DNA of 63,250 nt, from the NCBI GenBank assembly GCA_947303945.1, contig CAMYZS010000005.1, forward strand, positions 1-63,250. The letters run 5' to 3'. The notes beneath the pieces were generated by a model that saw nothing but the letters and a program-made list of their open reading frames with translations, made no database searches and was not told the origin of the DNA. Within the stretch, counting starts at the first letter, position 1. Every line of letters begins with the position of its first letter. Source of the stretch: an uncultured Candidatus Saccharibacteria bacterium. Its GTDB lineage: Bacteria; Patescibacteriota; Saccharimonadia; Saccharimonadales; Saccharimonadaceae. Both the position numbers and the translations under genes were made by a program. Positions 43,573 through 63,250 of the stretch are shown in pieces.

Positions 43573-45597
43573 TTATAGAGCAAACTGCGAATTGTAGAGA
43601 TCGGCATAAAGACCGCCTTTTTTCATTAACTGAACATGATTGCCAGTTTCTATAATATTGCCGTCATTCATAACTAGGATTAAGTCAGCATTTTTAATAG
43701 TTGATAGGCGATGCGCAATAATAAATGATGTGCGCCCTTCCGTTAACTTATCCATAGCCTTCTGTACTAGCTCTTCGGTGCGTGTGTCGACATTTGAAGT
43801 TGCTTCGTCGAGTATTAAAAACGGCGCGTCTTCGACCATACCTCGCGCAATTGTAATTAGTTGCTTTTGGCCAGCAGAGATCGATTCACTTTCGCTCATG
43901 TCTGTATCCAGACCATTCGGGAGAGTCTTAATGAAATGGCTGAGTCCGACGGTATCACAAATCTTCATGATTTGCTCATCACTTACACTTTTGTGGTTAT
44001 AGGCTATATTCTCGCGTACGGTTCCACTAAATGTCCAAGTGTCCTGTAATACCATTGTAAATAGGGAATGGATGTCCGCCCGCGTCATCTTCTTCGTCGA
44101 GGCTCCGTCTATGCGAATGTCGCCATCCTTAATCTCGTAAAATTTCATTAATAGATTAACCATTGTTGTCTTACCTGCACCAGTAGGGCCCACAATTGCA
44201 ATCTTCTGGCCAGCTTTTACTTCGGCGGAAAAATCTTTAATAATAGCCTTATTCTTATCGTAGCCGAATTTTACGTGGTCGAATACGATATTTCCTCGTA
44301 TAACAGACTTATCTATATGGCTATTAATATGCTGCTCGTCGGACATCTCTTCTTCGTCGATAAACTCAAAGACGCGTTCGCTCGCAGCCGCCGCTGGCTG
44401 TAGGTTGCCGACAGCTTGCGCAATGCGTGATAGTGGTGATGAGAAGAGGCGCGCGTAGCTTATAAAAGCGATAATTACACCAAAACTAATCGCCCCATTT
44501 ATTGTCAAAATAGCTCCAGTTACACAAACCGCGACATACCCGAGATTGCCCGTAAATGCCATAATTGGATGCATGAGGCCAGACAGAAATTGACTATGTA
44601 GATTAGCGTTGCGAATCTTCTTGTTTAACTTATTAAATTTCTTATCCGCAGTTTCTTTGCCGTCGTATGCTTTAACTACTGCTATGCCAGAATATATCTC
44701 TTCAATATGTGCGTTCATGTTCCCCAGCTCAATTTGTCGCTCGGCGAAGTACTTTTGCGATTTCTTTAGAATTGTCGCCATAAAAACGAATCCAAACAAG
44801 CTTGAGGCTATTGCTACTAGGGCCATAACCCAATTTGTGATTAACATCATTATAAGCGAGCCAATCAAGAGGAGGCCGTCGCCAATGATTATGCCAAACG
44901 AGTTATCAATACTACTCGATACAGAATCCACATCATTCGTCACACGTGAAAGCGTATCGCCGATTTGGTTCTGGTCGAAGTATCGCAGTGGCAGCATATT
45001 AATTTTATGCGAAATGCGATTGCGTAAATCTCGAGCAAAGCCAGACGTAACTCGCGCCATTATGAATCCCTCTAAGTATTCGAGGGTTGCGGATAGTACA
45101 TATAGAATTGCCATTAGTAGTGCTAGATTTCGAATGGCATCATGGTTCATTTTTGGTTTAATTACTTCCCGAATCGACTCCGGCAACTCGTCGATTTTCT
45201 GATAAATCATTACAGCGTCTTCGCCTGAAAGCTTGGTCAAACTACTCGTCTCCGATCGTAGCTCTTTTATTATATTGACGAATGCTTCTTTGTCTTCCGG
45301 GGATATTACTACATTATCAATCACGCTTTCGGTCAGTGGATCTCTCGATAATTCATTGGTGATATCATTGATTTTGTTTTGATCAAGTGCTAATCCGGCC
45401 GCAATCTCGTCCGTTATATTCGCCAACTTGTTTGGCGCAATTACACTAATGGCGGAAGTAGCTATCGACATAATCATTGCAATCGTGATTAAGGCATAAT
45501 ATTTGCGCATTTCTGCGAGCATGCGCTTAATAGCCTTGCCGAAGTTCTTTACCTTTTCCGGGCCGCCACGACGGCCGCCTGATCCTCCATTAAACAT
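43573..45597 (-). CDS. ABC exporter half-transporter, catalytically complete subunit
   Basis: It is a fused membrane-ATPase half of a drug/lipid exporter. The 674-residue product has six membrane helices (~35-400), with an insertion of ~90 polar residues between helices 1 and 2, then the ATPase domain: GPTGAGKTTMVNLL (Walker A), ISAGQKQLITIARG (signature, with Ala for the second Gly region) and FLILDEATSNVDTR with the catalytic Glu. It overlaps the next upstream gene by 8 nt; the two form a heterodimer. Confidence 0.93.
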   Translation of the reverse strand: MFNGGSGGRRGGPEKVKNFGKAIKRMLAEMRKYYALITIAMIMSIATSAISVIAPNKLANITDEIAAGLALDQNKINDITNELSRDPLTESVIDNVVISPEDKEAFVNIIKELRSETSSLTKLSGEDAVMIYQKIDELPESIREVIKPKMNHDAIRNLALLMAILYVLSATLEYLEGFIMARVTSGFARDLRNRISHKINMLPLRYFDQNQIGDTLSRVTNDVDSVSSSIDNSFGIIIGDGLLLIGSLIMMLITNWVMALVAIASSLFGFVFMATILKKSQKYFAERQIELGNMNAHIEEIYSGIAVVKAYDGKETADKKFNKLNKKIRNANLHSQFLSGLMHPIMAFTGNLGYVAVCVTGAILTINGAISFGVIIAFISYARLFSSPLSRIAQAVGNLQPAAAASERVFEFIDEEEMSDEQHINSHIDKSVIRGNIVFDHVKFGYDKNKAIIKDFSAEVKAGQKIAIVGPTGAGKTTMVNLLMKFYEIKDGDIRIDGASTKKMTRADIHSLFTMVLQDTWTFSGTVRENIAYNHKSVSDEQIMKICDTVGLSHFIKTLPNGLDTDMSESESISAGQKQLITIARGMVEDAPFLILDEATSNVDTRTEELVQKAMDKLTEGRTSFIIAHRLSTIKNADLILVMNDGNIIETGNHVQLMKKGGLYADLYNSQFAL

Positions 45598-47347
45598 TTA
45601 GCTCCTCCTTTGTCAGCTGCGAAAGCGCAATTTCTCGGTATACTTCACAATTCCGCATCAATTCCTGGTGTGTACCATGGCCTACGCAGTAACCCCTATC
45701 TAATACTATAATTTGGTCGGCGTGCATAATTGTGCCAATGCGCTGCGCTACGATTAATGAAGTTGCATCTTTTGTATATTCTTTGAGAGCTTTTCTAAGC
45801 GCCGCATCGGTTTTATAGTCGAGTGCCGAGAAGCTATCGTCGAAGATATATATTTCTGGATCTCGCACTATTGCCCGTGCAATTGCTAGGCGCTGTTTCT
45901 GTCCTCCCGAGATATTTGTACCAGATTGTGCGATATGTGAGTTATACTGCTTATCTAGCTTCTCGATAAAGCTCTTTGCTTGCGCTACTTTTGCCGCCGT
46001 CTGAATCTTTCGCTCGTTTGGCTTCTTTTTACCACTGTCACCGTAAGCTATATTACTAGCTACGGTTCCGCTAAATATTACTGCTTTTTGCGGTATGTAA
46101 CCAAGCTTCTTATGTAATGCTTTTTGGTTGTAGTCGCGTACATTTACGCCATCTACAAAAACCGCGCCTTCAGTAACGTCATAGAAACGCGGAATTAGGT
46201 TTATTAACGTCGACTTGCCAGATCCAGTTGAGCCGATAAAGGCTACCGTTTGACCCTTTTCGGCGCGAAATGAAATATCCTTTAATAAATACTCCTCTGC
46301 ATCAGGATATTTAAACGAGACATTGCGAAATTCGACTGTCCCAATCTCGGCTGTATCGTCATCAAACAGTCCATCTTTAATGGTGATTTCTTTGTCTAGT
46401 ACTTCGTTTATACGTTCGGCCGATACTTGTGCACGCGGGATTATCATAAAAATCATAGCCAACATTAGAAAGCTAAATATTACGTGCACTGCATAGGTTG
46501 AGAAAACGACCATATCGCTAAAAAGTGTCAGTTTATTCGCCATTACGGATTGGCTAATCAATGCGGCACCGATTAAATATATTGCCAAAGTGATACTATT
46601 TAGAACTAGATTCATTGTTGGCGACATGATACTTAATACGCGATCGACAAAGCGCGTAGTATCGGCAACCTCGGTATTTGGGATGTCGAATTTCTTTTCC
46701 TGGTATCTTTCCGCATTAAAAGCGCGCACGACGCGTATGCCCTTTAGACTTTCCTGTGTGACACCATTAAGTCTATCGGTAAGTTTCTGAATTAACTTGA
46801 AGCGTGGTATGACGAGTGTCATTATTGTAATAATTGTTGCAAGAATAATCACGACCGCCACTCCAGTCGCCGTACTCCACTGCCAACTTTTGCCAGATAT
46901 TTTTATAATCGCCCATGTTGCACTAAGCGGTGCCCTAATTAGCATGTTTGCTCCCATTGTTATTACCATCCGCACCTGCGTGACGTCATTTGTTGTTCTC
47001 GTGATTAGGGAAGCGGTTGAAAAACGTTTAATATCATCAACGCTAAGCTCTTCGACTTTGTCGAATATCTTTTTTTTCACAATAAAGGTGAAATCCGCCC
47101 CCACATTTGCTACAAACCAGCCCGCTATAATAGTCGAAACTAGGCTTCCAAAAGCGCAGAGGAGCATTAGTGCGCCATTATGCAAGATTTCGCCCATTTC
47201 GCTACCTTCGGTCCGTACTAGAACCGTAATATTTGACATATATTCGGGCATTTTTAATTCAAGCACAACTTGACCGGCAATAAACAGAACAGCTAAAGCT
47301 ATAAATAGCCAGTCTTTCCTCTTTAAGTTTCTGAATAGTTTAAACAT
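45590..47347 (-). CDS. ABC exporter half-transporter, partner with degenerate Walker B
   Basis: The 585-residue product has six membrane helices (~15-310) and an ATPase domain with GSTGSGKSTLINLI (Walker A), ISGGQKQRLAIARAI (signature) and IYIFDDSFSALD. Asp replaces the catalytic Glu after Walker B. This asymmetry matches heterodimeric exporters such as TM287/288 and BmrCD, where one site is non-hydrolytic. AGAGGAAA lies about 12 nt before the ATG. The substrate is unknown. Confidence 0.93.
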   Translation of the reverse strand: MFKLFRNLKRKDWLFIALAVLFIAGQVVLELKMPEYMSNITVLVRTEGSEMGEILHNGALMLLCAFGSLVSTIIAGWFVANVGADFTFIVKKKIFDKVEELSVDDIKRFSTASLITRTTNDVTQVRMVITMGANMLIRAPLSATWAIIKISGKSWQWSTATGVAVVIILATIITIMTLVIPRFKLIQKLTDRLNGVTQESLKGIRVVRAFNAERYQEKKFDIPNTEVADTTRFVDRVLSIMSPTMNLVLNSITLAIYLIGAALISQSVMANKLTLFSDMVVFSTYAVHVIFSFLMLAMIFMIIPRAQVSAERINEVLDKEITIKDGLFDDDTAEIGTVEFRNVSFKYPDAEEYLLKDISFRAEKGQTVAFIGSTGSGKSTLINLIPRFYDVTEGAVFVDGVNVRDYNQKALHKKLGYIPQKAVIFSGTVASNIAYGDSGKKKPNERKIQTAAKVAQAKSFIEKLDKQYNSHIAQSGTNISGGQKQRLAIARAIVRDPEIYIFDDSFSALDYKTDAALRKALKEYTKDATSLIVAQRIGTIMHADQIIVLDRGYCVGHGTHQELMRNCEVYREIALSQLTKEELNV

Positions 47348-47503: not shown

Positions 47504-49792
47504 CTAGTCCCTCATAGCGTGATAGATATAATTTAAGAAAGTATCGCGTTTTTCGGCGTTAATATTTCGTAATAAAATTACCTTAAACCTTGCTTTAGTT
47601 AAGGCTGTATAGAATATTTTCCGATCTTCAACAAAACTCGCAACTTCTTCTTTGGGCGTATCCACAAAAAGCCGCAAAAGCCAAAAAGTCGAGCGTGTCT
47701 TGCTTGGAGGATACAAATTTTGACCTACGATTATTACCCAATCCGCTTTTATGTCTTTGCTTCTTTTAGTGGTGGCGGCATCGAATTTGTAGCTAGGTAA
47801 TTCTGTCAGCGATACTTTAGTATCGGAGCCTTCTTTGAAGCCAGCCTTAGATTTCATCATTGTTTTGAGTATAGTATTTGTGCGCGCTAATACTAAAATT
47901 CGGTCACTCGGCCTTTGGCGATGTATGTTTAAAATGGCTTGTTTCGCTTGACTAAACTCATCCTCCATCGATTTACTGTCGCCATTAAAATTTAAGAACA
48001 CAAAAGGATCATTGAAATACCCTAGCGTGCATTTACGTTCTTTGCGAATTTGGTTTAGCTTTTCCATAATAAAATCGCCGGCGACATTAGCGGGAGACGG
48101 CTGACTATCGTGTGCGCTTGCAATCTTAAAAGTTTTGGCATTTTTAAGGCAATCGCGAAAGCCGTAAATTTGTTCAATTCTTGCTTTGGTGAATGAATGA
48201 ATTGTTTGCCAATCGTTACCAACAACTATTAGTTTTATCTTATTGCGCTCTACTAGCTTGCGCATGAGGTCAAAACAGCCCGATGAAATGTCTTGGTATT
48301 CGTCAATTAAGATGTATTTATAATGGAAAATGCTATTTTCTGTACGACTTACGAGAAACTTAGCGTAATAAATTACGTCCGCTATATCAAAGCTTGGCTC
48401 ATCGGCGCCACGGTGGATAGCGGCGTTATAGAAAAGATAAAAATCACGAATATATTTATACTGCTTTTCGGCTATGATACGTTCATTAAGACTCTTGATG
48501 TCTCCTAAATGGCTTTTGATTGTTTTGTCGAAGCAATCGCGACACGAGGAAGTTTTTATAACATCAATAGTTTCATAAAACAGTGTTTCCAACTTACGAA
48601 ACTCCACGAGTGGATTATGACGCAGGATAGCTTCATATATACTTTTCGCATTTCGTTCGTGCGGTAAACGTACGCCGAACTCTTCGAGCTTAGTGCGTAA
48701 TGTTTTGAGATAGCTGTTGTTTGGCTCGTAATGTAACGGAATAAAGTTGGTGTGATTTTTGCGATGGAACGATTCTTTTGTCTCGCGGATTTTATCATGA
48801 CTACCTATTCGGTAATCATTATTCTGCTCGTAGTATTCGATATAGAACTTTTGCCCACCTATATACAAGGTAAAATTTGGCCGATAGTCATTCGCGTCTG
48901 GTAATAATTCGTCAAAAGCCTGCCTATATGTATAGCTAATTGAATGACGGAATAACCAGTTTGCAATCATAGCTTCACCCTTAGACCTTACTCGTTCACC
49001 CATTAATGTGCGCGGTATATCGGCGTTTATGCTTGTAGCGATACTTCTTTTTAATAATGAATCAAAATTATTAACCTCTTTAAGACGGTATTTGATAAGA
49101 CTCTCGAAATAATCGTCGAAATTCCGAAAGTCGCCACGATTTTTCAGGTAATAATCGTCAATTAAGCCTCTGCGGCCAGTAGTATTTACATTAAAGCAAT
49201 CAATGAAATCATCGACCGTATCAGGATTAGCTAAGATGTGTCTTTTAAGGTAGTTCAGAAAAATCTCGTCTCGTTCTTTTTCATTAATGACGCGGCAATC
49301 TTTGTAACGCATAGTTTGTTTGATGTATTTGTAACCCAACGAATAAAAAGAAGTCACGCTAACTGGAATATTTAACATCTCGTTAATGTCTTCTTGCATC
49401 TTTTCTATTGTTCGTTCGGGGCCGCCTATTACTAATATGTCTTCCGGGGCGACATTCTTTTTTTCGACAAGATATTTTATTTTCGCAATTATAATATTTA
49501 TTTTCTCAGTATCCGTGCCAGCAATCACTAATGATCGATTTTCGTCTGCCAGAATGGCTCGTATTTGTTCGCTATTTAGCTCGATACTTGAATCAATATC
49601 ATCAAGAAGGTGACAAAAATAATCTTTAAGTTTAGCATGTTCGACTTCTAAAATTCTGCTGTTATATTCGTCTAGATTAAACTGTTTTGGGACTTGTTCA
49701 GGTGCACGTTTCTGGACCTTATCAAAGAAGGAAGCGGAAATATATTGTCGCTTAGCTAGTTTTCTTTCAAAGTCCAACAAAATGCTGCCCAT
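47504..49792 (-). CDS. Helicase IV-like SF1 protein with decayed active sites
   Basis: The 762-residue product aligns with the helicase IV/UvrD layout: Q motif (LNSEQIRAIL), motif II YILIDEYQDIS, motif III VGNDWQTIHSFTKA, and late FYTALTKARFKVILL. The Walker A site reads AGTDTEKIN instead of AGxxxGKT: Gly before the Lys is Glu and the following Thr is Ile. The inserted PD-(D/E)XK-type domain (~260-345, RSKGEAMIANWLF) has PNF where PDF is expected. The protein may bind DNA without normal ATPase or nuclease activity. A TATAAT box lies 10 nt before the ATG. Confidence 0.85.
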   Translation of the reverse strand: MGSILLDFERKLAKRQYISASFFDKVQKRAPEQVPKQFNLDEYNSRILEVEHAKLKDYFCHLLDDIDSSIELNSEQIRAILADENRSLVIAGTDTEKINIIIAKIKYLVEKKNVAPEDILVIGGPERTIEKMQEDINEMLNIPVSVTSFYSLGYKYIKQTMRYKDCRVINEKERDEIFLNYLKRHILANPDTVDDFIDCFNVNTTGRRGLIDDYYLKNRGDFRNFDDYFESLIKYRLKEVNNFDSLLKRSIATSINADIPRTLMGERVRSKGEAMIANWLFRHSISYTYRQAFDELLPDANDYRPNFTLYIGGQKFYIEYYEQNNDYRIGSHDKIRETKESFHRKNHTNFIPLHYEPNNSYLKTLRTKLEEFGVRLPHERNAKSIYEAILRHNPLVEFRKLETLFYETIDVIKTSSCRDCFDKTIKSHLGDIKSLNERIIAEKQYKYIRDFYLFYNAAIHRGADEPSFDIADVIYYAKFLVSRTENSIFHYKYILIDEYQDISSGCFDLMRKLVERNKIKLIVVGNDWQTIHSFTKARIEQIYGFRDCLKNAKTFKIASAHDSQPSPANVAGDFIMEKLNQIRKERKCTLGYFNDPFVFLNFNGDSKSMEDEFSQAKQAILNIHRQRPSDRILVLARTNTILKTMMKSKAGFKEGSDTKVSLTELPSYKFDAATTKRSKDIKADWVIIVGQNLYPPSKTRSTFWLLRLFVDTPKEEVASFVEDRKIFYTALTKARFKVILLRNINAEKRDTFLNYIYHAMRD

Positions 49793-49860: not shown

Positions 49861-50310
49861 TTAATCTTGATCTAGCGTACGAATGATACCAATCAGGGCA
49901 TCAATTAAACGATTCTTCCGATAGAGGCTATCGCGTATCTTATCTAATTCGTCGTATGCAAGGTCCGGATCGAACTCAGGCCCCCTCCTCTTGATGGTAA
50001 TATTGTCTTCCTCTTTATCCATGCGTATTATTAGGTCGTTGCGCTCTTTTCGAGAGCTCTCCAGGAGCTGTTTGGTTGTATTTAAATAGTTTGCGAGCTC
50101 TGGCGCTAGCTCGGACGGGGTCGTAGCGGGCCCCGATGTCGTACTAGCCTCGTTGTTCTGGCTGAACTCTTGGTTTGGCGCTGGGGCTTTCTCGGCTTCA
50201 ATCGGCTTCTCTTCGACGGCAGGAGCAGCAGGAGTAGTGTCTATCGAGTCTTGATAGTAGCCGTTTGTATCGTTTGATTGTGGTTGATTATAGTTTGTAA
50301 AATCTTGCAT
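49861..50310 (-). CDS. Unknown soluble protein, disordered N-terminus and coiled coil
   Basis: The 149-residue product has an N-terminal ~85 residues rich in Asn, Gln, Pro, Ala and Glu (probably disordered) and a C-terminal charged helix region (KERNDLIIRMDKEED, then FDPDLAYDELDKIRDSLYRK). No family was recognised. The ATG at 50310 is chosen because AAGGGTGAG precedes it and the TTAAAAT box overlaps the upstream ATG at 50343. It follows the helicase gene divergently by distance only. Confidence 0.7.
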   Translation of the reverse strand: MQDFTNYNQPQSNDTNGYYQDSIDTTPAAPAVEEKPIEAEKAPAPNQEFSQNNEASTTSGPATTPSELAPELANYLNTTKQLLESSRKERNDLIIRMDKEEDNITIKRRGPEFDPDLAYDELDKIRDSLYRKNRLIDALIGIIRTLDQD

Positions 50311-50398
50311 TATCTCACCCTTGTTGAATTTCTTTACTTTCATTTTAACATAAGAACTATGATATAATGCAAGAAACTAACGGATTCTAAAAGAGAAT

Positions 50399-50959
50399 AT
50401 GCCAAAGACTACTAAAACTCCTAAAAATCATAAAATAATAAATGGCAGCACTTTGCCGAAAGACGATAAGGCCTGTGCACGCCTTCGTCTTATGGGGATA
50501 CTTATGGCGCTCGCAAGCGTCCTGATGGCATTGTTACCAATGATATACTCGGGCGTTTATCGCTATGTTGCTAAATATTCGGGTGCATATATGACGGACT
50601 TTGCTATAACGAGTATGATCATTACGGGCTTCGTAGTTGCTTTACTTTATTTTCTACTTGGGCTGTATGTTATTATGGCGAGCGAACGTAATACGCGCCT
50701 CGTGCGTGCAGTATATCAGATGAATGTTATCCTGACTTTCTTAGCTGTTGTTGCAGGTATTCTGTTATTCATGCCTTGGCCTGTTCCTACTTTTCGACTC
50801 ATGATGACGCATTTGGCTACTGCTAATTATATTGAGCAGGGTATCACACCGATGTTTATCATGCTATTTGTTGATATGTCGTTAATAATTGGCCTAGTCG
50901 CATCTGTAACCGGTATTACTTATACTTGCTTAATCGATAAAGAGACGAAAACGAAGTAG
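50399..50959 (+). CDS. Four-helix membrane protein, unknown
   Basis: The 186-residue product has a basic N-terminus of ~32 residues and four hydrophobic helices (~33-55, 65-95, 102-125, 150-178), with a short basic tail. No family was recognised. A TATAAT box (50361-50366) lies about 32 nt upstream and there is a weak AAGAGAA before the ATG. The next gene follows within 28 nt, so the two are probably one unit. Confidence 0.75.
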   Translation: MPKTTKTPKNHKIINGSTLPKDDKACARLRLMGILMALASVLMALLPMIYSGVYRYVAKYSGAYMTDFAITSMIITGFVVALLYFLLGLYVIMASERNTRLVRAVYQMNVILTFLAVVAGILLFMPWPVPTFRLMMTHLATANYIEQGITPMFIMLFVDMSLIIGLVASVTGITYTCLIDKETKTK

Positions 50960-53798: not shown

Positions 53799-54746
53799 AT
53801 GCATATTCATGGGTTGGGCGTTGACGTACGCAATATCGAAAAACGAATCCGTTTCTGCAATTATCTCTCGGTCGCTCAGATTTTTTTGCAAGACAACATC
53901 TTATTAAGCCGTCCGTTAAGCTTTTCGGATATTAAACCTCGTCTTCTCGGCCACTGGGGTTCATGTCCTGGTATCAATATTGCTTACGCAAACCTCAAAG
54001 CGCGCTATCCGCAGATGCAATTTATTTTGGGGCCTGGCCATGGTTTTCCTGCCTTGCAGGCTAATATGTTTTACGACGGCGACTTAGCAGAGTATTATCC
54101 AGAAGCTACCCCAAATCTTCATGGTCTCGAGTATCTATGTAAAAAGTTTTCTTGGCCATATGGCTTTCCGAGCCATGCCAGCCCCGCCACTCCGGGCGTA
54201 ATTGCTGAGGGTGGCGAATTGGGTTACTCGCTTGCAACCGCTTACGGCGCAGCACTTGGCCGTCCTGGTAAGATTATTGTCGTATTAATCGGCGATGGTG
54301 AACTCGAAACCGCTACGGCAGTTAGCAGCCTCAATTTAAATAAGATACTCAACTCTAAACATAATGGTCGCGTCCTCCCGATTTTGCATCTTAATGGATA
54401 TAAAATTTCTGCGCCAACTATTTATGGTCGCAGTAGTGAACGTGAATTAATGAACTTGTTCCGCGGTTTTGGTTACTATCCGACTATTGTGGATGGCACA
54501 AATACGGAAGAATTCCAAATGGCACTCGGAGAGCTAAAGCGGAACTCATTTATCATTATGAAGACGCCAAAAGGCTATACTGGACCACGAGAACTCGACG
54601 GTAAGAAGCTTGAGGGTAACTGCGCCTCGCATCAAGTTCCACTACCGAAAGCTAAAACTGACGAAAAGCAACTTAGAATATTGCAGGAGTGGCTAGAATC
54701 ATATAAGTTTAAGGAGCTATACGATGAATTTACCAACGAGCGTTGA
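53799..54746 (+). CDS. Phosphoketolase, N-terminal subunit (ThDP pyrophosphate domain)
   Basis: Phosphoketolase (Xfp) splits xylulose-5-P or fructose-6-P with phosphate to give acetyl-phosphate. This 315-residue protein covers only the N-terminal domain: LGHWGSCPGINIAYA, GPGHGFPALQA, FPSHASPATPGVIAEGGELG and the ThDP-Mg site GDGELETATA with LNLNK, ending near QEWLESYKFKELYD. Known Xfp is a single chain of ~800 residues. Here a stop is followed by a second gene for the rest. The N-terminus is also ~20 residues shorter. A TAAAAT box lies 6 nt before the ATG. Confidence 0.92.
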   Translation: MHIHGLGVDVRNIEKRIRFCNYLSVAQIFLQDNILLSRPLSFSDIKPRLLGHWGSCPGINIAYANLKARYPQMQFILGPGHGFPALQANMFYDGDLAEYYPEATPNLHGLEYLCKKFSWPYGFPSHASPATPGVIAEGGELGYSLATAYGAALGRPGKIIVVLIGDGELETATAVSSLNLNKILNSKHNGRVLPILHLNGYKISAPTIYGRSSERELMNLFRGFGYYPTIVDGTNTEEFQMALGELKRNSFIIMKTPKGYTGPRELDGKKLEGNCASHQVPLPKAKTDEKQLRILQEWLESYKFKELYDEFTNER

Positions 54747-55893
54747 GCAGCCAGGTGCTGAAGAATATTCCATCGCTAAGGTGTTTGGTGAAGGCCTAGC
54801 AGAGGAGTTAAGAAAACACGAAGATTTTTATTTCTTCTCGCCAGACGAAACTACTTCTAATCGTCTAAGTAGTGTATTTGAGTCATCTGGCCGCGCTTGG
54901 CAGTTGCCGATTGAGCCATGGGATGTAGGCTTGGCTAAAGATGGACATATTATCGAAATGCTTTCTGAAAATGTTCTATTTGCTACCATGGCGGGACATA
55001 TTCTCAGCGGGGGTCGAGCTTGTCTAGCTTCATACGAAGCATTCTTGCCGATTATATCGTCTCAGTTGGATCAGCATCTTAAATTTCTTAAGCAAGCAAA
55101 AGAAACCTCTTGGCACCCACGTTATTGGGCATTAAATATTCTTTCGACTTCTTGTTGGCAACGTCAAGACCATAACGGCTACACGCATCAGAATCCAGCT
55201 TTAATATCAAATCTCCTTGCTAAGCCAAGCAATGAAGTAAACTGTCTATTTCCGATTGACGATGTAGCGGCTGCGGCGGCTTGGGAATTTATGACTCGCA
55301 CCAAGAATGTTGTGAATTTGACAACTTTTAATAAAATCGAGGTGCCACGCTGGATAGATATTAATCATGCTCGTTTTCAACTGACGAATGGCGGGGCTTC
55401 CATTTTTCAGTTTGCATCTGATGATAATCCAGAAATAATTGTCGCGGGCATTGGTGATATTCCGACTATCGAAGCACTCGAAGGTATTAAGCTTGCTAAG
55501 CAGGAAGCGCCAGATTTGCGCGTTCGCTTTATTGGTGTAGCGGCGCTTTCGTATGGCGCCATTGGTACAACTGAAAATAAACTCAGGCCCAACGATTTTA
55601 ACGATTATTTTACGCCCGATAAGCCAATCGTCGTAAACTTCCATGGTTACCCAGAAACGGCATTTGGCATCTTTGCGCACTATGCTGCCCCGTATCGACT
55701 CAATATTCATGGCTATCAAGATCAAGGCTCGACTACTTCTCCGATGGATGAGTTGGCTCGCAACTCGTGTTCGCGATACGATATAGCCGCTAGCATACTC
55801 GAACGTTCTGGTCGTTATGGCTTTATGCGAAAATTCCGAGACATTAAAGTCGAAAACGCCAATTACGCTAGCCAATTCGGCGTTGATCAATAG
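54724..55893 (+). CDS. Phosphoketolase, C-terminal subunit
   Basis: This 389-residue protein matches the middle and C-terminal domains of Xfp: FSPDETTSNRLSSVFE, GGRACLASYEAFL, WQRQDHNGYTHQNPAL (substrate and ThDP contacts) and GYQDQGSTTSPMDELARNS. It starts with its own ATG after AAGGAG (54712-54717, 7 nt spacing), overlapping the N-terminal gene by 23 nt in another frame. The overlap and Shine-Dalgarno show a genuine split gene rather than a recent frameshift. The usual C-terminal extension is missing. The two chains should associate, like split transketolases. Confidence 0.92.
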   Translation: MNLPTSVEQPGAEEYSIAKVFGEGLAEELRKHEDFYFFSPDETTSNRLSSVFESSGRAWQLPIEPWDVGLAKDGHIIEMLSENVLFATMAGHILSGGRACLASYEAFLPIISSQLDQHLKFLKQAKETSWHPRYWALNILSTSCWQRQDHNGYTHQNPALISNLLAKPSNEVNCLFPIDDVAAAAAWEFMTRTKNVVNLTTFNKIEVPRWIDINHARFQLTNGGASIFQFASDDNPEIIVAGIGDIPTIEALEGIKLAKQEAPDLRVRFIGVAALSYGAIGTTENKLRPNDFNDYFTPDKPIVVNFHGYPETAFGIFAHYAAPYRLNIHGYQDQGSTTSPMDELARNSCSRYDIAASILERSGRYGFMRKFRDIKVENANYASQFGVDQ

Positions 55894-61247: not shown

Positions 61248-62678
61248 GAATTAGACAACGAAAGAAATTTAATTGACGGCATAGCGAGAAATCGCATGCA
61301 CTAGTATTTGAAAATCAATTACTAGTTAAGTCAATGCATAAAAAGGTACATAAGGGCACTGATAGTGGATGCCTTGACATTTGCAACCGATGAAGGACGT
61401 AGAACTCTGCGATAAGCTTCGGGTAGCTGAGAACAAGCTTTTAATCCGGAGATTTCCGAATGGGGAAACCTAATTCAAGTCATGTTGAATTGCCGTTAGC
61501 TGAACACATAGGGTAATGAGACGGGAACCAGCCGAACTGAATCATCTTAGTAGGTTGAGGAAAAGAAAGTAACCAACGATTCCGAAAGTAGTGGCGAGCG
61601 AAATTGGAATAGTCTAAACCTCAAGATAACCTTACGGGTTAACGCCCAGAGTTATTAGGGGTGTTGCGTGTTTGCACAATTTTTATGCTGAGCAGTTAAG
61701 CTTGCTTGACCGTTCGGCATAAAAACCAACAGCGTTAACTGAGTGGATAAGTATCGTAGTTGTTAGCGGAAGCGTTTGAATGGCGCGCCAAAGATGGTGA
61801 AAGCCCAGTATGCGAAAACAACTATTGAACTTATATGTGTTTTCACAAGTAGGACGGGGCACGAGAAACCCTGTTTGAATCCGGCAGGACCACCTGCCAA
61901 GACTAAATATTGCAAATGATCGATAGCGAACTAGTACAGTGATGGAAAGGTGAAAAGAACCCCGGGAGGGGAGTGAAATAGATCCTGAAACTCAGTGCCT
62001 ACAAGGTGTCGGAGCAGCTTCGGCTGTGACGGCGTGCTTTTTGTAGAACGATCCAGCGAGTTAATTTTGTCGGCGAGGCTAAGTCAGATGATGGAGCCAC
62101 AGTGAAAGCGAGCCTGAATAGGGCGTCAAGTCGGCAGGATTAGACCCGAAACCGGGTGACCTAACCATGAGCAGGTTGAAGCTGCGGTAACACGCAGTGG
62201 AGGACCGAACCAGGGTACGCAGTAAAGTGCTTGGATGACTTGTGGTTAGCGGTGAAATGCCAATCGAACTCGGAGATAGCTGGTTCTCCTCGAAATAGCT
62301 TTAGGGCTAGCGTTGTGTAGTAGCATTTGGGGGTAGAGCTCTGAAAAGGTCTGGGGCCGGCAACGGTACCCATCCTTATCAAACTACGAATACCAAATGT
62401 GTAATCATGGCAGTCAGAACGGCGGGGCTAAGCTCGTCGCTCAAAAGGGAAACAGCCCAGACCATCGTCTAAGGTCCCTAATTAACACTAAGTGGGAAAC
62501 AAGGTGAGATTTCTTAAACAGCTAGGATGTTGGCTTAGAAGCAGCCATTCATTTAAAGAGTGCGTAACAGCTCACTAGTCAAGAGATTTTGCGTGGAAAA
62601 TGTAACGGGGCTCAAGTGTTAAACCGAAGACATGGATTATGTATCGAAAACTAAGCCTATAATCATAAATAGACTATT

Positions 62679-62743
62679 GCGAGTTTGAGAGGTCTGCGTA
62701 GAGGTATGCCTTTACGTTGCGGGTTCGACTCCCGCCACTCGCT
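62679..62743 (+). tRNA. tRNA-like element 1, D arm missing
   Basis: Sixty-five nt with acceptor GCGAGT/ACTCGC, T arm GCGGG-TTCGACT-CCCGC and a central stem GTAGA/TTTAC with an 8-nt loop GGTATGCC. Only 12 nt lie between acceptor and central stem, too few for a D arm. The apparent anticodon is unclear (ATG if read like element 2). The discriminator is T and no CCA is encoded. It is tRNA-shaped but probably not a normal tRNA. Confidence 0.6.
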
Positions 62744-62746
62744 TAG

Positions 62747-62819
62747 GGGTATATAGCTCAGCGGTTAGAGCGACTGGCCTGATGGCCGGTGGTCTGGGGT
62801 TCGACTCCCCATATGTCCT
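62747..62819 (+). tRNA. tRNA-like element 2, Ile(GAT)-like
   Basis: Acceptor GGGTATA/TATGTCC (two G-U pairs), D stem GCTC/GAGC with loop AGCGGTTA, central stem ACTGG/CCGGT with an 8-nt loop CCTGATGG, T arm TGGGG-TTCGACT-CCCCA. The anticodon reads GAT after a T at position 33, with one extra base 5' in the loop and a 4-nt variable region. Loop bases CC and GG could also pair and hide the anticodon. Discriminator T instead of the A usual for Ile; no CCA. Confidence 0.75.
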
Positions 62820-62875
62820 TAGCCATACGATGAGCGGATACTTGGTATCGTAGGTTTTATTCCTACTATGGCTAA
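62820..62875 (+). tRNA. tRNA-like element 3, minimal
   Basis: A perfect 8-bp acceptor-like stem TAGCCATA/TATGGCTA and a perfect T-arm stem GTAGG/CCTAC with a 7-nt loop TTTTATT. Between them only ~22 nt remain, holding a hairpin GATAC-TTG-GTATC with a 3-nt loop. There is no D arm and no usable anticodon loop. It abuts element 2 directly. Probably a structural relic or mimic. Confidence 0.5.
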
Positions 62876-62880
62876 AAAAT

Positions 62881-62953
62881 GCGGACGTAGCGCAATTGGC
62901 AGCGCGCCGGATCTTTAATCCGATGGTTACGGGTTCGAGTCCCGCCGCCCGCT
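62881..62953 (+). tRNA. tRNA-like element 4, Lys(TTT)-like
   Basis: Acceptor GCGGACG/CGCCCGC (one A-C mismatch), D stem GCGC/GCGC with AATTGGCA, anticodon region CCGGA-TCTTTAA-TCCGA, T arm CGGG-TTCGAGT-CCCG (with an A-C pair at its base). Alignment with bacterial tRNA-Lys puts TTT at the anticodon but C at position 33 in place of the nearly universal T. CTT with a shifted loop is possible. Discriminator T; no CCA. Confidence 0.75.
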
Positions 62954-62956
62954 TAT

Positions 62957-63030
62957 AGATGTGTAGCTAAGATGGTTAAAGCAGCCGACCAGAAAATCGG
63001 CCATCCTGGGTTCGAGTCCCAGCGCATCTG
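62957..63030 (+). tRNA. tRNA-like element 5, Phe(GAA)-like
   Basis: Acceptor AGATGTG/CGCATCT, short D stem GCT/AGC, perfect central stem GCCGA/TCGGC with an 8-nt loop CCAGAAAA, 4-nt variable region, T arm CTGGG-TTCGAGT-CCCAG. Aligned to tRNA-Phe the anticodon is GAA, with an extra base 5' of it and A at position 33. Discriminator G; no CCA. The body is otherwise well paired, so this is one of the better-preserved members. Confidence 0.75.
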
Positions 63031-63058
63031 TCGTTTATAAATAGCCAATTATAAACGA
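63031..63058 (+). other. Perfect hairpin in the 23S insertion
   Basis: TCGTTTATAA/TTATAAACGA, ten pairs with an 8-nt loop ATAGCCAA, directly after tRNA-like element 5. Confidence 0.85.
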
Positions 63059-63071
63059 ATTGTACCTTGCA

Positions 63072-63103
63072 GTCGGGCGGCACTCCTACTAGTGCTGCCC
63101 GAC
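63072..63103 (+). other. GC-rich hairpin in the 23S insertion
   Basis: GTCGGGCGGCACT/AGTGCTGCCCGAC, thirteen pairs (one G-U) with a 6-nt loop CCTACT. There is no T run after it, so it is not a terminator. Confidence 0.85.
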
Positions 63104-63250
63104 ATATTCAAGATTATAGCTTTAGTTTTCGATACATAGTGGTAGAGGAGCGTTGATATTGCAGTGAAGTTAGATTGTAAAGTCTAGTGGAGCGGTATCA
63201 AGTGAGAATGCTGGAATCAGTAACCTTAAGACAGGTGAGAATCCTGTCGG

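Follow-up and report, generated by a model that had tools for sequence, protein, structure and literature searches.

What role, if any, is left to a helicase whose motor motifs have degenerated while its reading frame remains intact? The question is raised by a gene at positions 47504-49792, on the minus strand, of the 63,250-nucleotide stretch analyzed here (the window; contig CAMYZS010000005.1 of an uncultured Candidatus Saccharibacteria bacterium, assembly GCA_947303945.1). Automatic annotation would label this gene an ATP-dependent DNA helicase. We propose that its product is a pseudo-helicase, a helicase-nuclease of the UvrD/helicase IV type with an inactivated motor, which has been kept for a non-motor role in DNA handling, and we put the probability of this reading at about 0.62.

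The window gene and its helicase motifs

The gene is a 762-codon open reading frame with an ATG start, a TAG stop and zero internal stops, bearing out the intact 762-residue frame reported in the initial annotation. We assigned the 762-aa product (47504-49792, minus strand, as are all features of the locus given below) as a motor-dead UvrD/helicase IV-like protein with an embedded nuclease-like domain from its Pfam and NCBIfam matches, a structure model and a fold search. The top Pfam match was the UvrD helicase N-terminal domain (PF00580; 83.3 bits against a cut-off of 23) over residues 72-546, and the C-terminal helicase domain reached only 9.6 bits, under the Pfam cut-off; the canonical orthologue L005 scored 129.9 (N-terminal) and 58.1 bits (C-terminal) on the same two domains. 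DNA helicase IV (NF008276) was the top NCBIfam model at 133.5 bits (8.8e-39), well under its curated cut-off of 543 bits, and the window protein differs from that family by the embedded nuclease-like domain and the dead motor. The N-terminal helical region (residues 1-70; 49583-49792), modeled with helices at residues 2-13, 20-29 and 40-54, is 80% identical to L005, compared with 62% for the whole protein. An alternative genetic code was ruled out: RF2 is encoded, TGA serves as the terminator of 4 of the 44 window ORFs, and the gene studied here is free of internal stops.

The helicase motifs were read directly from the DNA. Walker A (the P-loop; residues 91-98, 49499-49522) reads AGTDTEKI in place of the canonical AGAGTGKT: Lys97 is retained, Gly94, Gly96 and Thr98 are gone, and the consensus GxxGxGK[ST] is not matched in the window protein. 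The earlier description of a Walker A lacking its Gly-Lys-Thr ending thus holds as to degeneracy, but the lysine is present and Glu-Lys-Ile replaces Gly-Lys-Thr. Motif II (Walker B; DEYQD, 48290-48304) is intact. Motif III (48206-48220) is GNDWQ for GDDWQ, with Asp to Asn at residue 526, and motif VI (47588-47623) is RKIFYTALTKAR for RRVFYVALTRAR, with Arg to Lys at residues 725 and 733, so that of motifs II, III and VI, all described as kept, only the first is unaltered. The initial annotation had also missed the loss of motif IV (AHDSQP for TYRNSQ; 48098-48115) and motif V (KRSKD for HKSKG; 47753-47767).

We scored the extent of this loss with 27 helicase signature residues of our own choice, taken from canonical orthologues. 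The window copy retains 15 of the 27 (0/4 in motif IV, 1/3 in motif V and 3/5 in motif VI), and two sister copies described below retain 13 (L007, in genome G020) and 8 (L009, in genome G004). Gln76, Lys97, Asp497, Glu498, Gln500 and Asp501 remain in the window copy; Lys97 is absent from both sisters.

Relatives of the window protein

The only full-length match in the window's own genome was the gene itself, followed, with 29% identity, by a canonical helicase IV-like paralogue. A search of the genus gave matches at 1e-60 or better in 10 of 45 genomes. Among the genus matches, L011 is partial and has no Walker A region; the nine copies that cover this region comprise six canonical and three degenerate ones (the window copy, L007 and L009). 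A wider set of 89 loci was aligned with the clade, namely the best 80 of 515 from named genome records (six of which duplicate genus copies already counted), four belonging to another genus of the family and five of the 39 viral-contig loci. In this set, which includes the best 80 of the 515 genome-record loci, a P-loop could be read in 88 of the 89, and 87 of these 88 carried AGAGxGK[ST]. The sole exception was L049, a second record of the sister copy L007. Since the search patterns were made from the nuclease helix and a loosened form of motif II, with no Walker A, this count was not built into the search. The altered P-loop of the window copy is thus no product of chance. Only three motor-dead copies are known.

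An assembly or sequencing artefact was ruled out, the degenerate motifs being found in three separate genomes, with one copy recurring in a second record (L049). We also rejected the idea of a virus-specific gene: the 39 loci from viral contigs were all distant, and the five aligned were all canonical.

The genomic locus

The gene occupies one syntenic site, with further flanking genes in common, in five genomes: that of the window (G000), G001, G007, G020 and G004. The copies at this site are canonical in G001 and G007 and motor-dead in the other three. The canonical orthologues (L005 in G001; L006/L047 in G007) share the locus, length and domain order of the window protein, at 62% and 58% identity, and differ from it in having an intact PDF/EYFG nuclease motif and a full set of intact helicase motifs. 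The initial annotation had reasoned that canonical relatives at this locus would point to decay in a single strain. Such relatives do exist, but the motor loss is common to three genomes that group together and is not a strain defect. With active, motor-dead and empty-site relatives all at one locus, the conversion of a motor into a non-motor protein is open to direct study.

Downstream lies an ABC transporter pair (45590-47347 and 43573-45597; together 43573-47347), which served as the syntenic anchor for the locus comparison. Upstream, on the same strand, is a conserved small gene (49861-50343); it was ruled out as a tied partner of the helicase because it occurs at sites without one. Indeed, five genomes of the genus (G067, G005, G026, G036 and G031) have both flanking genes about 480-490 bp apart and no helicase between them, so that the helicase gene is cargo the site can dispense with. 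Among the adjacent listed window ORFs, neither GajA nor a reverse transcriptase was recognized by eye.

The gap between the ABC transporter and the helicase carries differing extra ORFs, of 246 aa in G001 (L038, 5739-6476) and 1304 aa in G020 (L040, 4640-8551), a pattern reminiscent of an insertion hot spot. Elsewhere, in G006 (L041, 3361-5161) and G023 (L044, 9420-11220), a canonical relative of the helicase adjoins a type II DNA methyltransferase and a small unmatched ORF. The methyltransferase of G006 matched the PADLOC profile MTase_II at 1.2e-105, and this neighbor suggests that the active form of the helicase keeps company with restriction or defence genes.

One inactivation or two

The three motor-dead copies could descend from a single inactivation or from two. 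In the helicase gene tree the window copy groups with L007 and L009, and joining it instead to the canonical L005 and L006 was rejected by the AU test in iqtree (p 0.0016 for protein, 0.0043 for DNA). The dead copies evolve much faster than the canonical ones; the branch to the window copy measures 0.41 substitutions per site. Since all three are fast, long-branch attraction is a real worry in this tree. As an independent check, a seven-gene concatenation with outgroups also placed G000 with (G020, G004), apart from all others, with a support of 100. Two independent inactivations had been favored by a five-taxon unrooted tree of neighboring genes, which put G000 with G001/G007; rooting with outgroups in the seven-gene tree regrouped the genomes, and single genes still disagree. 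By identity, the window gene at 50399-50959 places G000 nearer to G001 than to G020/G004, as does the aminopeptidase (81% with G001, 72-74% with G020/G004). Shared derived residues, at 7 versus 5 columns, were not decisive for single versus double inactivation. Because the gene tree and the seven-gene tree both group the dead copies, one inactivation in the ancestor of the three sampled species is the simplest and most likely account.

Selection after motor loss

If the gene had become useless, it would be a pseudogene in waiting whose frame has stayed open by chance. Such slow decay is consistent with the faster evolution of all three dead copies and with the second motor domain being modeled at lower confidence; it also agrees with the dispensability of the helicase, which five other genomes of the genus lack at this site. 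dN/dS was estimated over the gene-tree topology, one omega being fitted to the canonical branches and another to those after inactivation; synonymous sites are saturated, which makes the values rough, and the omega of the ancestral branch ran to extreme values and was excluded.

Omega = 1 was rejected in every partition (2dL 34.7 to 337.1), including the non-motor (337.1) and motor (199.8) regions, against decay. In the motor half, omega was 0.097 in dead and 0.040 in canonical copies (2dL 48.1); in the non-motor half the values were 0.100 and 0.075 (2dL 2.7, not significant). Residues 1-70 (61 codons) were relaxed, at 0.202 compared with 0.082 (2dL 6.3), despite the 80% identity of window copy and L005 in this region. 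Residues invariant among canonical copies survived at a higher rate in the non-motor than in the motor half: 62/78 non-motor versus 82/127 motor residues in the window copy (p 0.028), 57/78 versus 62/126 in L007 (p 0.0008) and 56/76 versus 55/126 in L009 (p 3.9e-5).

Neutral substitution on the window branch would have been expected to produce about 16 stops, and none was seen; nor was there any stop or frameshift in any of the three dead copies, two of which also keep their nuclease tetrad intact. The faster evolution of the dead copies is looser constraint, and purifying selection persists after motor loss, with near-normal constraint outside the motor. Decay is thus an unlikely explanation. 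The notion of a repurposed, non-motor protein, already put forward in the initial annotation, fits better, because the loss is common to three grouped genomes and the gene has remained under purifying selection.

The nuclease-like insert

Residues 263-375 (48668-49006) form a PD-(D/E)XK-like insert. Its PADLOC profile matches, obtained with the whole protein as query, were the candidate defence profile PDC-S69 (residues 260-375, 2.1e-11) and, more weakly, HEAT_CxxC_PDDEXK (1.2e-4). We take residues 273, 306, 319 and 339 to be catalytic from their conservation and by analogy with the PD-(D/E)XK superfamily. The window copy retains Glu273, Glu319 and Lys339, and the catalytic Asp of the PD motif is absent from it: the segment reads RPNF (residues 304-307; 48872-48883), with Asn306 encoded by AAT, as first noted from the DNA alone. 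In addition, EYYE replaces EYFG. Both sisters thus have the tetrad EDEK where the window copy has ENEK, and every one of the 88 relatives in which the site is covered, L049 among them, has Asp, in a collection containing the best 80 of 515 genome-record loci. The description of both sites as degenerate therefore applies to the window copy but not to the whole clade, as the sisters keep the Asp, Glu and Lys.

With its tetrad intact, the protein of the sister species may still cut DNA. In the window species the change of Asp306 to Asn has probably removed cutting, leaving binding or structure. A further explanation would be that the clade encodes a nuclease independent of both ATP and translocation; the window copy would then be a recent exception or still cut with Asn306. 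E273, D306, E319 and K339 are all present in L007 and L009 even though 14 and 19 of the 27 helicase residues are gone, and omega in the insert (0.083 in dead versus 0.047 in canonical copies; 2dL 2.9) does not differ significantly. The Asn306 and EYYE of the window copy speak against this account, as does the assignment of the catalytic residues by conservation and superfamily analogy, and we consider it decidedly unlikely.

Predicted structure

An AlphaFold2 model of the window protein was built from a 44-sequence alignment and had a mean pLDDT of 84.2 and a pTM of 0.76, compared with 89.3 and 0.83 for the model of a canonical orthologue. Confidence dropped most in the second motor domain, with blocks of 51-57 at residues 561-590 versus 83-87 in the canonical model. 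The helix that follows the P-loop starts at residue 94 in the window model and at residue 97 in the canonical one, the P-loop being absorbed into the helix. The fold matches (VIA Z) were PcrA, UvrD and Rep at 21-23, with PcrA/UvrD at about 23, followed by AdnB (about 21), AddA (about 18), GajB (17.3) and AddB (15.3). The prediction is thus of an SF1 helicase fold in which the nucleotide pocket is not normal. That Lys97 and the intact DEYQD might bind nucleotide without productive hydrolysis, so that ATP would gate DNA affinity, draws on the six retained residues named above (Gln76, Lys97 and those of motif II), but it is very improbable given the loss of Gly94, Gly96 and Thr98, the absorbed P-loop of the model and the sisters' lack of Lys97.

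Proposed role and comparison with known systems

For a pseudo-helicase retained in DNA handling, we envisage the following course. A helicase-nuclease of the UvrD/helicase IV type is carried as dispensable cargo between the ABC transporter pair and the small gene in one Saccharibacteria genus, and its ATPase motor was most likely inactivated once, in the ancestor of the three sampled species. ATP hydrolysis would then no longer be coupled to translocation, while the protein would still fold as a helicase-nuclease. The product would act in static, ATP-independent DNA handling, either binding DNA or serving as a scaffold, perhaps within a larger complex for repair or defence; sister species may have kept DNA cutting at this stage, which the window species probably gave up through Asn306. 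We consider a static role the most likely because motor coupling appears to be gone and the accessory and nuclease regions are under near-normal constraint.

The window protein shares its fold with UvrD and PcrA (SF1A) but differs from them in Walker A, in motifs IV, V and VI and in the nuclease insert. It can be compared with RecC (of RecBCD) and AddB (of AddAB), likewise relatives of helicase-nucleases that have lost catalysis and serve as DNA-handling subunits. The helicase parts of both are inactive. The likeness to the degenerate helicase core of the window protein is one of sequence; the fold search pointed to nothing specific to AddB or RecC over and above the general SF1 fold, AddB matched below the active helicases, and the nuclease-like domain is C-terminal in RecC and AddB and inserted in the window protein. 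The window protein may thus be compared with RecC and AddB by analogy, and we claim no membership. Enzymes that have lost catalysis but are still selected for illustrate how structural subunits are added to the machines of repair and defence. The classic case is RecC, which is reported to carry an inactivated nuclease-like domain (PMC1185551).

Among the defence systems of PADLOC, the helicase core matched RTasHel of DRT (3.6e-17) and GajB of Gabija (7e-17). GajB and RTasHel helicases are not known to be motor-dead. Titles and abstracts in the literature, mostly open-access, yielded no description of a pseudo-helicase in Saccharibacteria, nor of a UGA-bearing paralogue of the kind described below.

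A UGA-bearing helicase IV-like paralogue

The canonical helicase IV-like paralogue of the window genome lies outside the window (G000:C21:14954-16894; L002, L206, L229), and the paralogue carries in-frame TGA at conserved Trp codons in most of its copies in the genus. We aligned 27 genus copies; two further loci outside the genus had no usable frame, and the N-terminal part of the alignment is ragged. Past column 160, in the alignment body, there are 29 TGA, 25 of them in five columns that are otherwise mostly Trp and four elsewhere. Column 449, for example, has 12 TGG, 12 TGA and 1 Phe, and the Trp of motif III (GDDWQ) is encoded by 25 TGG and 2 TGA. Neither TAA nor TAG was found inside the genus matches of the paralogue, TGA being the only stop codon there. 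As a control, the aminopeptidase gene, whose window copy contains 13 Trp codons, was free of in-frame TGA in 43 of the 43 genomes matched (45 searched). RF2 is encoded in the window genome, and the tRNA-Trp anticodon is CCA only, among the tRNAs read from this genome. The TGA-free aminopeptidase, the RF2 and the single tRNA-Trp anticodon make the in-frame TGA look specific to the paralogue gene, in which UGA is likely read through as Trp and may possibly have a regulatory role.

The paralogue (L002, L012-L027) is a mirror image of the window protein: its motor motifs are kept, and in most copies the nuclease PDF is eroded to PSF, PTF, PHF and the like, the Asp being retained in L013 (PDF) and L025 (ADF). 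It is highly improbable, in spite of these complementary losses, that the two proteins form a split RecBCD/AddAB-like pair whose assembly would depend on UGA being read as Trp.

Other features of the window

Two further features of the window were observed. A 23S rRNA gene (61340-63250) encloses three tRNA or tRNA-like genes (62746-63032), of which one is for Lys (TTT) and the other two have unusual anticodon loops. The Rfam match to the rRNA gene takes up 1911 bp for 1336 model positions and reaches the contig end, which suggests a tRNA-bearing insert in the 23S rRNA gene. The phosphoketolase at 53799-55893 is divided between two ORFs that overlap in separate frames, first XFP_N (315 aa) and then XFP + XFP_C (389 aa). 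The same split occurs in G001, G007 and G020, and it is therefore not a local error.
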